Source: Glaciimonas sp. CA11.2 (GTDB taxonomy: Bacteria; Pseudomonadota; Gammaproteobacteria; Burkholderiales; Burkholderiaceae_D). From it: a DNA stretch of 64,000 nt. The DNA lies in the NCBI RefSeq assembly GCF_034314045.1, contig NZ_JAVIWL010000001.1, positions 1,736,001 to 1,800,000 of the forward strand. The letters are read 5' to 3'. Made by a program: the position numbers and the translations under genes. Each line of letters starts with the position of its first letter. Position 1 is the first letter of the stretch. Shown piece after piece: positions 52,295 to 56,664 of the stretch. The notes below the pieces were generated by a model. The model did not search any database. It was not told the DNA's origin and was given only the letters and a program-made list of their open reading frames with translations.

Positions 52295-53056
52295 CTAAGA
52301 ACCGCTGTACCAGTTGTACCCCTGGTCTTCCCAATAGCCGCCGGGATACTCGTTGGTGACGAAGATCGCTGCAATGTGCTTGGGGTTCTTGAAGCCGAGT
52401 TTGGTCGGCACCCGCAGTTTTAACGGATAGCCATACTCGGTTGGTAGCGGTGAAGTGCCAAAATCTAATGCCAGCAAAGTTTGCGGATGCAATGCGGTTG
52501 CCATGTCGATGCTGGAGTAGTAGCGGTCGGCACATTTAAAGCCGACATATTTTGCCGTCGTATCAGCACCGATATGGGCCAGGAAAGTGCGAAACGGCAC
52601 GCCGCCCCACTGGCCGATGGCGCTCCAGCCTTCGATGCAAATATGGCGCGTGATCTGCGACTCCTGTGGTAATGCCCTTAATTGCGCCAGGTTCCAGTTG
52701 TCCTTGTTACGCACTAGTCCAGAGACTTCCAGCTTATAGGTATCACCATCGATCTCCGGTGCGGAATCTGCGTCATAAAAAGCATTGAATGGAAACGGCT
52801 TGGTGATCATGCTGGCCGGATAGGTTTGCGCCAGATGATTGGCGCGAAACAACATACTTTGCACACGATCATTCCAGCGTGACATTGCCCACAATACCTT
52901 GTCGACCTGATCGCCATCCTGCAGGTTGCAGCCGCTTAGTAGCGATAACGCGCCCAGTGACAAACCCGAACGCAGGAACAGGCGGCGCTGCAGTTGCACC
53001 AGTTCAGGTTGTAGCTCACTGTTTTTCAGCAGTTTGTTTTTTTTCTCGCTCATCAT
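52295..53056 (-). CDS. Molybdopterin-dependent oxidoreductase (SUOX fold), Tat-type lipoprotein
   Basis: Protein of 253 residues with the sulfite-oxidase/YedY-type molybdenum-binding domain. The molybdenum-ligand cysteine is in ITRHICIEGWSAIGQWGGVPFRTFL. GFKCADRYYSSIDMATALHPQTLLAL and PLPTEYGYPLKLRVPTKLGFKNPKHI follow the family order. The N-terminus QRRLFLRSGLSLGALSLLSGC combines a twin-arginine RR-x-FLR motif with a lipobox (LSGC), suggesting Tat export and lipid anchoring. Its gene overlaps the end of the cytochrome gene by 4 bases, so the two probably form one enzyme. It resembles MsrP but is partnered with a b561-type cytochrome rather than MsrQ. The substrate is unknown. Confidence 0.85.
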   Translation of the reverse strand: MMSEKKNKLLKNSELQPELVQLQRRLFLRSGLSLGALSLLSGCNLQDGDQVDKVLWAMSRWNDRVQSMLFRANHLAQTYPASMITKPFPFNAFYDADSAPEIDGDTYKLEVSGLVRNKDNWNLAQLRALPQESQITRHICIEGWSAIGQWGGVPFRTFLAHIGADTTAKYVGFKCADRYYSSIDMATALHPQTLLALDFGTSPLPTEYGYPLKLRVPTKLGFKNPKHIAAIFVTNEYPGGYWEDQGYNWYSGS

Positions 53057-53700
53057 TGCTGCTCCTGCTTGATAAGTTTTTTGCTGGAGTGGCGGGGTGC
53101 CCGTCCGGTTAGCATGGGCAGCAGCGTGCTCGGCACGATCAGCACCAGCGCCAGATGCACCACCACGAAGCCGACGATACCGGCCATGGCGATGAAGTGC
53201 ACGCGGCGTGCAATGTCATAGCCGCCGAATAGGTCGACCAGACCATCCAACTGCACCGGTTTCCAGATCGATAAACCGGACGCTACCACCAGCACGCCAA
53301 GCAGCAACACGCCGATATACATTAGACGTTGCACGGTGTTATAGACGCCTGGCTGATGCGCCAGCTTTAAGGTCAACGCATCTTTTACATCGCGCAGCAG
53401 GGCACTGAATCGTAGCGGCAGGAAATGACGGCGGAAATGACCAGCGAGCAGGCCGTAGCCAAGATAGATCAGGCCGTTCACACCCAACAGCCACATCGCC
53501 GCCAGATGCCACGCGATCGCGCCGCCCAGCCATCCACCGAGAGTGGCCCAATGCGGAAAACCAAAGCCGAACAGCGGCGAGGCGTTGTAAATCGCCCAGC
53601 CGCTCATTACCATACAGACGATGGCGAAGGCGTTGATCCAGTGCACTATGCGCACCAGCAACGGATGAATGATGCGGCGGGGGTTATCGGCAGTCGCCAT
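53053..53700 (-). CDS. Cytochrome b561-type membrane protein, electron donor to the molybdoenzyme
   Basis: Membrane protein of 215 residues with four transmembrane helices. Histidines in the helices could ligate haem b: HPLLVRIVHWINAFAIVCMVMSGWAIYN, AIAWHLAAMWLLGVNGLIYLGYGLL, the third helix VLLLGVLVVASGLSIWKPVQ, and VHFIAMAGIVGFVVVHLALVLI. This fits the b561/Ni-Fe hydrogenase cytochrome b family. Genes of this type commonly sit beside molybdopterin oxidoreductases and pass electrons between quinone and the periplasmic enzyme. Its 3' end overlaps the molybdoenzyme start. Confidence 0.87.
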   Translation of the reverse strand: MATADNPRRIIHPLLVRIVHWINAFAIVCMVMSGWAIYNASPLFGFGFPHWATLGGWLGGAIAWHLAAMWLLGVNGLIYLGYGLLAGHFRRHFLPLRFSALLRDVKDALTLKLAHQPGVYNTVQRLMYIGVLLLGVLVVASGLSIWKPVQLDGLVDLFGGYDIARRVHFIAMAGIVGFVVVHLALVLIVPSTLLPMLTGRAPRHSSKKLIKQEQQ

Positions 53701-53752
53701 GAATACACCTTATCAAAAATCGTTACGGTCAGCTGGCCAGCCCGGCTGCCGG

Positions 53753-53777
53753 GTCGGCGGGTCGCCGGACCGCCGAC
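53753..53777. terminator. GC-rich hairpin between the exported protein and cytochrome genes
   Basis: GTCGGCGG-(9 bases)-CCGCCGAC forms an 8-bp GC stem with a 9-base loop. On the minus strand it is not followed by a T tract, so partial attenuation or RNA protection of the upstream gene's mRNA is more likely than full termination. Confidence 0.45.
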
Positions 53778-53793
53778 TTCCCGCGATACAGCT

Positions 53794-54423: not shown

Positions 54424-54492
54424 GGGAATAGTCTCGGTAGTTGCTGGGAAGTTCATAGTAGGCGTGCCGAAGTGTCTTATCGGTGACAGTTG

Positions 54493-54510
54493 AATGACAA
54501 TATTGTCATT
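54493..54510. promoter_or_regulatory. Perfect 18-bp palindrome, probable CusR/HprR-type operator
   Basis: AATGACAATATTGTCATT is a perfect palindrome in the divergent promoter region between the exported-protein gene (start 54423) and the response regulator (start 54563). It contains TGACAA-NN-TTGTCA, the core of the CusR/HprR (YedW) box known from E. coli. So the adjacent regulator probably controls both its own operon and the redox operon. Confidence 0.85.
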
Positions 54511-54562
54511 ATTCGTGGCGCGCGAATTGATAGAATAGTGGCATCACCATCAAGGAATTAGC

Positions 54563-55243
54563 ATGGCTATCCTCGTCATCGAAGACGATCCAAAAACCGG
54601 CGACTACCTCAAAAAAGGCCTGCGCGAATCAGGTTATGCGGTCGATTTGATTCGCAATGGCAGCGACGGTTTACACATGGCCCTGGAGAATTCCTATGAC
54701 CTGGTCGTGCTGGACGTTATGTTGCCCGGTACCGACGGCTGGAAGATCATGACTGCGATCCGCGCTCGCCGTGATTTGCCGGTCATCTTCCTGACCGCGC
54801 GCGACCATGTAAACGACCGTATACGCGGGCTAGAGTTGGGCGCCGACGATTATTTGGTCAAGCCATTTTCGTTTACCGAACTGCTGCTGCGGATTCGCAC
54901 TTTGCTGCGTCGCGGCGTGGTGCGTGAGGCGCATGCGCTGGATTTTTTTCAGGTTGCCGATTTGCAGCTTGATCTGTTGCGCCGCAAGGTCACGCGTCAG
55001 GGTGTCGATATCGTCCTCACCAACAAGGAATTTCTTCTATTGCATCTGCTAGTCAAACGCCAGGACGAAGCCTTGTCGCGCACCGTCATCGCTTCCGAAG
55101 TGTGGGACATGAATTTTGACAGCGACACCAATGTGGTCGACGTCGCCATTAAGCGGCTACGCGCAAAAATCGACAATCCCTTTGATCACAAACTGATCCA
55201 CACGGTGCGTAGTATCGGCTATATGTTTTCTGAAAATCCATGA
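54563..55243 (+). CDS. Heavy-metal/redox response regulator, OmpR family (CusR/HprR-like)
   Basis: Response regulator of 226 residues. The receiver has the acidic pair VIEDDPKT, phosphoacceptor aspartate in [14 protein letters not shown], threonine in [13 protein letters not shown] and lysine in [11 protein letters not shown]. The C-terminal winged helix of OmpR type includes [53 protein letters not shown]. This sequence is typical of the CusR/CopR/IrlR/HprR group. A perfect CusR/HprR-type palindrome lies 53 bp upstream. Its stop overlaps the kinase start by 4 bases (ATGA). Confidence 0.93.
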
Positions 55244-56664
55244 ATCTCTGGCGTACCCGCTCACTGACCGTACGCGTCTCTTTTCTGTTCGCGCTGATTG
55301 CCTGCGCTATTGTTACCAGTCTCGGCATGTACTTATATTCGTCGGCACGACAGGCGCTGGAAACCCGTGCCGATTATGGGCTGATTGGCAGAGTAGAGCA
55401 TTTCCGCACGCTGCTGCACGATCTCTACAACGTCAAGCAGATGGAAGATAGACCGACATTGTTTGAAACCATGCTGGGTAGCGAGAATGATGTACTGATG
55501 TTTGCCTATCCGGGTCAGGCACCGTTCGTACGTGTCAATCCGGATAATATGACGCCGCCGCCAATGTCGCCGGTGGGCTTGAATCAACCCTTAAAATTAC
55601 CAGCACTGCAAACAGGTGAACGCGCCGATGGCGTCCGCGTACGCTGGATCTCGGCCGAGGCAGAAGTAGGGAGTGAGGGCACCAAAGTAGTGATCGTCGG
55701 TGCCCATGTGATGACGCAAGAATCGCATATGCTTTCTCAATACTATTGGCAGGTGATCGGTGCCGCTGCAACATCGGTGCTGCTGGCAGCGCTGTTCAGC
55801 TTCCTGGTGCTGAAGCGCGGCTTTCAGCCGTTAACTTCGATGGCCGGGCGCGCTGCCGAAGTCAGTCCGACCAATATTGCCGTACGCCTGCGCGAAGAAG
55901 ACGCGCCGCAAGAGTTGCGGCGGCTAGCCCAATCTTTCAACGCCATGCTGGATCGGCTTTCCGACGGCTATGAACACCTGTCGCAGTTTTCGGCCGACCT
56001 CGCGCACGAGATTCGTACGCCGATCGGCGCCATGATGGGACTGACTCAGGTGACCCTGAACAAGGTACGCAGTGTCAGTGAATACCAGCAGGTTCTGGAA
56101 TCGAATCTGGAAGAACTACAGCGCCTCAGCCGTATTGTGGAAAACATCCTGTTCCTCGCGCATGCGGACCATGCTGGTCTCGCTGTCGAAAAAACACCGC
56201 TGGTACTGGCCGATGAGCTGCACAAGATCGCCGAGTATTTTGAGGGTATGGCTGAAGAGCGCGATATCAAACTGGTGGTGGACGCGAGTGGAGAGCTGCA
56301 AGTCAGTCCGGTAATGTGGCGTCGCGCGGTCAGCAACCTCGCTGTGAACGCGGTGCGCTATGCGCTGCCGGGAAGTATTGTGCGACTTAGCAGCAAGCCG
56401 CAAGCGCAGGGAACATGGGTTGAAGTGGAAAATCAGGGTGATCCGATCCCGCAAGAACAGTTGGACCGCTTGTTCGACCGTTTCTATCGCGGCGACAAAT
56501 CGCGCAGTGAATTTACGGAATCGAACGGACTCGGGTTGGCGATTGTACGCGCCATCATGCTGGTGCACGGCGGCAGGGCCGAGGTAAGTTGTTCAGCGGC
56601 GGGACTGATCCGTTTTAGCCTGTATTTCCCACAGACGCCGCAGGAAATACCCGCACGAACCTAA
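55240..56664 (+). CDS. Heavy-metal/redox sensor histidine kinase (CusS/HprS-like)
   Basis: Sensor kinase of 474 residues. Membrane helix 1 (about 11-31), a periplasmic sensor domain, and helix 2 (about 168-190) are followed by HAMP ([21 protein letters not shown]). The dimerisation/phospho-histidine region is [22 protein letters not shown], the N box [14 protein letters not shown], and the G boxes [17 protein letters not shown]. This is the CusS/IrlS heavy-metal kinase type. In E. coli the equivalent HprS senses reactive oxygen or chlorine species. Whether this one senses metal or oxidant cannot be told. The periplasmic domain has several methionines ([21 protein letters not shown]). Confidence 0.92.

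Follow-up and report, generated by a model that had tools for sequence, protein, structure and literature searches.

A candidate oxidant-responsive methionine-repair module with a b561-type cytochrome and a DUF5666-like protein in Glaciimonas

The window analysed here, a stretch of 64,000 nucleotides from the 5.5 Mb genome of Glaciimonas sp. CA11.2 (C1:1736001-1800000), encodes what is probably (at an estimated probability of about 0.68) a self-contained, oxidant-induced module for the repair of methionine sulfoxide in the cell envelope. A two-component system of a response regulator (RR) and a sensor kinase (HK; 54563-56664, + strand) diverges from an operon (52295-54456, - strand) for an exported protein (DUF), a b561-type cytochrome (CYTB) and a molybdoenzyme (MOLY), an arrangement that an initial annotation of this DNA had proposed and that the gene map and domain matches confirm. 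Methionine repair is the favoured reading because relatives have the regulator next to msrPQ, the regulators of the two gene sets form a joint clade, the methionines of HK resemble those of HprS, the active site of MOLY resembles that of MsrP, sister systems protect against oxidants, and CusSR and HprSR of Escherichia coli both drive hiuH-msrPQ.

In the proposed mechanism, of which we infer the signal, the binding of RR, the electron path, the substrate and the role of DUF, HK would sense reactive species of chlorine or oxygen, or perhaps oxidation driven by copper, via periplasmic methionines and would phosphorylate RR, which would bind a palindrome between the operons and activate DUF-CYTB-MOLY and probably its own operon too. 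CYTB would draw electrons from quinol and hand them to membrane-tethered MOLY, which would reduce methionine sulfoxide in periplasmic proteins, and DUF would be an exported OB-fold partner or preferred client, in the slot of the methionine-rich MXKDX/MrpX decoy of a sister clade. The features are as follows.

52295-53056, - strand: MOLY, MsrP-like (SUOX-fold) molybdopterin enzyme of 253 aa that looks like a twin-arginine translocation (Tat) lipoprotein (PF00174, 104.6 bits)
53053-53700, - strand: CYTB, b561-type membrane cytochrome of 215 aa, presumed electron donor from quinol to MOLY (PF01292, 74 bits); its gene overlaps that of MOLY by 4 bp
53794-54456, - strand: DUF, exported all-beta protein, DUF5666-like, 220 aa as called (OB-type fold model)
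54495-54508, no strand: operator TGACAATATTGTCA between the divergent operons (shuffles; kept in relatives)
54563-55243, + strand: RR, OmpR-type response regulator of the heavy-metal (CzcR/SilR/CopR) subfamily (TIGR01387)
55240-56664, + strand: HK, membrane sensor kinase with two transmembrane helices and a periplasmic loop with M78 and M164 (TIGR01386)

Conservation of the cassette, its operator and its regulator

The search for this gene order in other genomes, which the initial annotation had suggested, found all five genes (HK-RR / DUF-CYTB-MOLY) in 70 of 80 relatives (71 with the window), these being the best 80 of at least 583 confirmed loci with relatives of MOLY and thus a set biased to close relatives. 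In three of the ten loci without the full cassette (L020, L054, L081) the contig ends a short way upstream. DUF lies near MOLY in 77 of the 80 and is absent from L054, L055 and L070. Matches were sparse in a class-wide sample of 143 genomes (the enzyme in the window's own genome alone, 1/143 at E <= 1e-60; the DUF protein in 3/143, two of them barely below 0.001), and a family-wide sample of 245 genomes was therefore used, in which MOLY-like proteins (E <= 1e-50) occur in 72 genomes and DUF-like proteins (E <= 1e-12) in 46. By position, every family-sample MOLY of at least 70% identity has DUF directly upstream on the same strand (29/29), and 29 of 30 strong DUF matches (E <= 1e-45) adjoin a MOLY of at least 70% identity; two of the 21 weaker DUF matches, those of G342 and, on the opposite strand, of G367, lie next to a MOLY, a count from which contig breaks could hide more. 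The exception among the strong matches, genome G201, has its DUF gene (L177:3277-3998) under a perfect operator and its regulator still beside msrP; the 7.5 kb read contain no match to CYTB or MOLY, and the family sample gave no MOLY for this genome. This operator-linked DUF hints that the protein may have an independent use. The DUF-CYTB-MOLY system is widely conserved, little described and a sister of an already known repair system.

The perfect palindrome TGACAA-NN-TTGTCA noticed in the initial annotation is present as TGACAA-TA-TTGTCA, the sole perfect copy in the window, and was found in none of 100 shuffles; the whole genome holds three perfect copies including this one. It agrees with the E. 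coli K-12 site between cusR and cusC (TGACAATTTTGTCA) and is unlike the one between hprR and hiuH (TTACAAAATTGTAA). Scored over the ten counted bases of TGACA-N4-TGTCA in the 77 relative loci with enough upstream sequence, the operator occurs with at most one mismatch in 70 (0 mismatches in 41, 1 in 29, 2 in 3 and 4 in 4), versus 24 of 1,459 control windows of 415 nt drawn from the same loci. Upstream of 28 lower-identity loci no match had fewer than two mismatches. Sigma-70 promoter matches were no better than in shuffles (4 found, 3.1 expected).

The other two genomic copies of the palindrome have their own settings. The second (C1:3517234; L105:4735) precedes a resistance-nodulation-division (RND) efflux operon of an outer-membrane factor, a membrane-fusion protein and an RND pump, which is followed by its own response regulator and kinase pair (L112, C1:3500000-3513000); the efflux regulator is 59-60% identical to RR. 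Because this pair stands with a perfect operator of the same kind, cross-talk like that between CusR and HprR may occur between the two systems. The third copy (C1:4868771; L106:5272) lies between an open reading frame (ORF) with a ricin-B-lectin domain and an ORF without a Pfam match.

RR exceeds the cut-off of TIGR01387 (CzcR/SilR/CopR subfamily; 329.2 bits, cut-off 279.2) and falls below those of both equivalog models, HprR (NF008567, 292 versus 353) and CusR (NF007346, 292.2 versus 420). It is 59% identical to CusR, 54% to HprR and 36% to OrhR of uropathogenic E. coli (UPEC); OrhR-type control is rejected on this last identity and on the lack of a TGACA-N4-TGTCA in the c3565-c3566 intergenic stretch as read.

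Comparison of genomes gives the gene order, the operator, the orthology of the regulators, the clade structure and a link between regulator and msrPQ, the last seen in the Herbaspirillum group (genome group g168), of which 13 genomes, all chosen for holding the DUF gene, were tested. In all 13 the RR orthologue (81-86% identity) stands away from the DUF operon and divergent from msrP, a perfect operator precedes msrP, and the flank contains an MsrQ match; at one such locus (L190) MsrP, MsrQ and MsrA score above their NCBIfam cut-offs. A second msrP in G293 has neither operator nor RR. All 10 loci read of the group's DUF-CYTB-MOLY operon have a perfect TGACA-N4-TGTCA and no adjacent RR match; eight of them each represent one of the 12 sampled g168 genomes that contain MOLY, and the other two are L037, whose strain is thereby counted twice, and L042. 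The co-regulation of the two divergent operons that the initial annotation had expected thus gains comparative support, since an operon separated from the regulator still has the operator. In four of eight loci read (L186, L187, L188, L192) there is another perfect operator at a distance of about 2.6 kb, and at L186:7141-7721, near msrPQ, a His/Met-rich DUF305/CopM-like ORF (83.2 bits, cut-off 90), the only such ORF scanned, stands behind a perfect operator.

A tree of 55 response regulators (28 of the 70 linked loci, the window, 13 msrP-linked regulators, 10 paralogues and three from E. coli) joins DUF-linked and msrP-linked regulators in one clade (support 99/96) without the paralogues, CusR or HprR; OrhR and HprR are long-branched and their own positions unsure. 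Within the joint clade, the msrP-linked group (100/97) nests in a subclade (99/98) that also contains DUF-linked regulators from the window, Collimonas and other lineages. Because of this nesting, the original partner of the regulator was most likely the DUF operon, and a later move in the Herbaspirillum line would have brought the regulator next to msrPQ, with the old operator kept. The comparative evidence ties the operon to a methionine-repair regulon more firmly than sequence resemblance alone. G156, from the window's genus, is without DUF and a close RR, and keeps an RR paralogue (61%) and an enzyme of the MXKDX-linked type described below.

HK scores 450 bits against TIGR01386 (cut-off 292.55) and has transmembrane helices at 13-31 and 172-190 by hydropathy. 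In an alignment of 78 clade kinases (the window, 69 of the 70 linked loci, L030 being missing, and 8 msrP-linked), M78 aligns with HprS M72 and is invariant (78/78), and M164 aligns with HprS M153 (61/78); we take this pair of HprS residues to be its proposed sensors of reactive chlorine. At the two positions I and Y stand in CusS, and L and T in the efflux paralogue. M158 (67/78) and H156 (70/78) are also conserved and are absent from HprS.

The redox pair and its substrate

All 80 aligned sequences, among them two repeats of own-genome proteins, have the five histidines of CYTB (H20, H65, H115, H168, H182), which would be enough for the two haems usual in its family. The protein beside MOLY is a PF01292 match, with no Ferric_reduct-type haem protein there, as the initial annotation had it in placing b561 where E. 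coli has MsrQ. MOLY is 56-63% identical to enzymes linked to methionine-rich peptides (C3567 of UPEC and others). Its C43 is invariant in 35 of 35 aligned sequences, and its model has a SUOX fold (predicted local distance difference test, pLDDT, 76, weak at both ends). The active-site stretch RHICIEGWS aligns as the MsrP type, R-x-x-C-[IV]-E-[GA]-W-S, unlike SorA; C140, E142, W144 and S145 are invariant in the enzyme alignment, and the cysteine of the stretch is presumably the molybdenum-binding one.

The SUOX fold and the highest structural Z, that of SorA 2blf (19.2), would suit a sulfite dehydrogenase or other oxyanion oxidoreductase with b561 as electron acceptor or donor. Such an assignment is very unlikely: the active-site stretch is of the MsrP type, the domain scan of MOLY found no Mo-co_dimer domain, the score against the SorA model NF052245 is 53.9 (cut-off 600), a SorA-like enzyme is encoded elsewhere in the genome next to a cytochrome c gene, and relatives have the regulator linked to msrPQ. 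The active-site stretch, the missing dimerisation domain and the model scores led to the rejection of sulfite dehydrogenase as the identity of MOLY.

The MXKDX-linked enzymes and UPEC C3567 form a clade, called type II here (28 rows, support 97/100), in a tree of 62 enzymes selected from those fetched; the window enzyme lies outside this clade. All DUF-linked enzymes in the tree except that of L160 also fall outside type II; they are poorly resolved, with open basal forks and the DUF-less, long-branched L178-L180 and L055 among them. The window module shares with type II the pairing of a b561 cytochrome with a PF00174 enzyme, and has no methionine-rich MXKDX peptide. The genome itself also encodes a canonical MsrPQ elsewhere and a MOLY paralogue (60-61%) in a CYTB-MOLY-MXKDX cluster, MXKDX being assigned by repeat count, with no DUF or two-component system nearby.

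Several observations weigh against protein methionine repair by MOLY. Its score against the MsrP model NF003767 (NCBIfam equivalog) is 92.4 bits, under the cut-off of 207, it is without the C-terminal part of MsrP, and it is just 28-33% identical to MsrP; for these three reasons its substrate may differ from that of MsrP. As the genome already holds MsrPQ and a type II module, the window module may have another function. In 10 of 10 genomes of the window's genus and Collimonas, msrP is without an upstream operator and without an adjacent RR (L194 has a one-mismatch match within a coding region), so the link to msrPQ is indirect there. Four relatives (L035, L049, L055, L057) are without both adjacent regulator and operator, and the bcrXQP mutant of Brucella was not sensitive to H2O2, according to the available part of PMC8315932.

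MOLY might instead act on another oxidant-derived substrate (chloramines, or S- or N-oxides of small molecules), for which the same operon and regulator evidence would hold and with which the divergence of MOLY from MsrP and the presence of MsrPQ in the genome would agree. This is considered highly improbable; the sister systems are tied to a methionine-rich peptide that the available part of PMC8315932 proposes as their substrate.

The DUF protein and the place of the methionine-rich peptide

No MXKDX ORF, defined by at least three M-x-K-D-type repeats and over 8% methionine, was found among the 80 type I loci, against 19 of the 27 fetched type II-clade loci; DUF was found in 2 of those 27. 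For this reason DUF and the MXKDX peptide appear mostly to fill alternative slots, and DUF takes the place of the methionine-rich peptide. The DUF-like genes beside type II enzymes (L160:2282-2896, 30% identity; L164:1516-2202, 41%, on the opposite strand) suggest a separate regain or a remnant. As for type II itself, a CYTB-MOLY pair with an MXKDX gene is carried on a 6.4 kb Klebsiella variicola plasmid (L088), and relatives of this kind were counted at 75 places on E. coli plasmids. A GTAA-type / CGA-type motif stands upstream of some type II operons (L085 at about 3727-3760; also L151, L154, L155, L157, L158, L182); it resembles the recognition sites listed for the Brucella extracytoplasmic function (ECF) sigma factor BcrS in the available part of PMC8315932, and this ECF-like motif was present at some type II loci only.

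DUF is a single-copy protein in the genome. Two relatives pass the gathering cut-off of 27 for PF18914 (DUF5666; P0063 with 33.5 bits, P0058 with 33.4), and the window protein has no PF18914 match at E 0.01. An internal start would give about 208-209 aa, which fits the length of many relatives. The structure model is an OB-type fold (pLDDT 82), for which Foldseek returned no match at E <= 0.001. M140-T141-N142-G143 is present in 61 of 61 sequences, and a M-H-W-M set is mostly conserved. The methionine content is 2.7%, and 1.4-4.3% in the called relatives, several of which have over-long starts (the 7.7% of L019 comes from a wrongly called 65 aa ORF); on this low content a methionine-rich decoy role for DUF was rejected. 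It is conceivable, if rather doubtful, that DUF is a new dedicated partner of a methionine-sulfoxide reductase, one that folds as an OB-type protein, has an invariant M-T-N-G turn and the M-H-W-M set, and binds a metal or oxidant or serves as the main client, so that one regulon would join oxidant sensing, metal handling and methionine repair. By title, none of the four papers found to mention DUF5666 deals with such a system.

The module might also serve copper homeostasis, with CusRS-like sensing of Cu/Ag, DUF as a CusF-like copper-binding OB-fold protein, and the redox pair keeping its methionines or copper reduced. The resemblance of RR and operator to CusR and the cusR-cusC site is what such a role would share with CusRS, and CusS is without the two HprS-type methionines of HK; the rank of CusF in the structural comparison of DUF was not taken as proof. 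A copper-homeostasis role is considered unlikely.

Flanking genes encode a glutathione S-transferase-like protein, a cupin-8/JmjC-like protein and a LysR-type regulator (51384-52259, 56721-57671, 57761-58651) and gave no sign of membership in the module.

Comparison with known systems

MsrPQ and the systems with methionine-rich peptides account for most of what is known of methionine repair in the periplasm, and the DUF operon would add another widely conserved form that has a regulator of its own. The Herbaspirillum group offers a natural control, with the same regulator beside msrPQ and a separate DUF operon that keeps the operator, which makes the function of the almost unstudied DUF5666-like family and the HprS-type sensing methionines directly testable in environmental bacteria. 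The initial annotation had suggested a parallel, little-described periplasmic repair or detoxification system: a parallel repair system under a CusR/HprR-type regulator is supported, and the b561-partnered enzyme type has already been described in a sister form (UPEC c3566/c3567, PMC8550376), while the MsrPQ-like bcrXQP of Brucella (PMC8315932) carries a methionine-rich peptide of the same kind. What the comparison adds is that DUF takes the place of the methionine-rich peptide and that, in the Herbaspirillum group, the regulator lies beside canonical msrPQ.

In the UPEC system OrhKR-c3566/c3567/c3568, c3566 and c3567 were studied under OrhKR, and their mutants were sensitive to tert-butyl hydroperoxide (PMC8550376). 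The system resembles the window module in its cytochrome b gene, its MsrP-like molybdoenzyme (56% identical to MOLY), its divergent two-component system and its oxidant resistance, and differs in that its third gene, according to PMC8550376, encodes a methionine-rich peptide, not DUF. OrhR also differs from RR, the C3567 enzyme lies within type II, and the intergenic stretch as read is without the operator. The CFT073 RefSeq record marks the c3566 cytochrome gene (L113:2552-3150) as frameshifted, though published work treats it as functional.

Brucella bcrXQP, as described in PMC8315932, is similar as an operon with an MsrPQ-like pair that confers HOCl resistance, its mutant being HOCl-sensitive, and unlike the window module in its control by an ECF sigma factor and in a methionine-rich MXKDX peptide instead of DUF. 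Azospira yedYZ-mrpX reportedly also combines an MsrPQ-like pair and a methionine-rich MXKDX peptide in one operon.

E. coli CusRS-cusCFBA is akin to the window module in its regulator and in the operator core, and differs in its efflux targets and in its kinase. The HprSR-hiuH-msrP-msrQ system likewise has a kinase and regulator pair that diverges from an operon with an exported protein in first place, an MsrP-type enzyme and a membrane haem partner, and its regulator and operator are related to those of the module; the leading exported protein, which the initial annotation had set against E. coli, is therefore no contrast. The differences are MsrQ versus b561, an enzyme of 33% identity, HiuH versus DUF, the gene order (enzyme then membrane protein, versus membrane protein then enzyme in the window) and the site TTACAA-N2-TTGTAA. 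At hiuH-msrPQ, HprSR and CusSR share a box and both drive the operon, with HOCl acting via HprSR and copper via CusSR, as described in the available part of PMC9302797.

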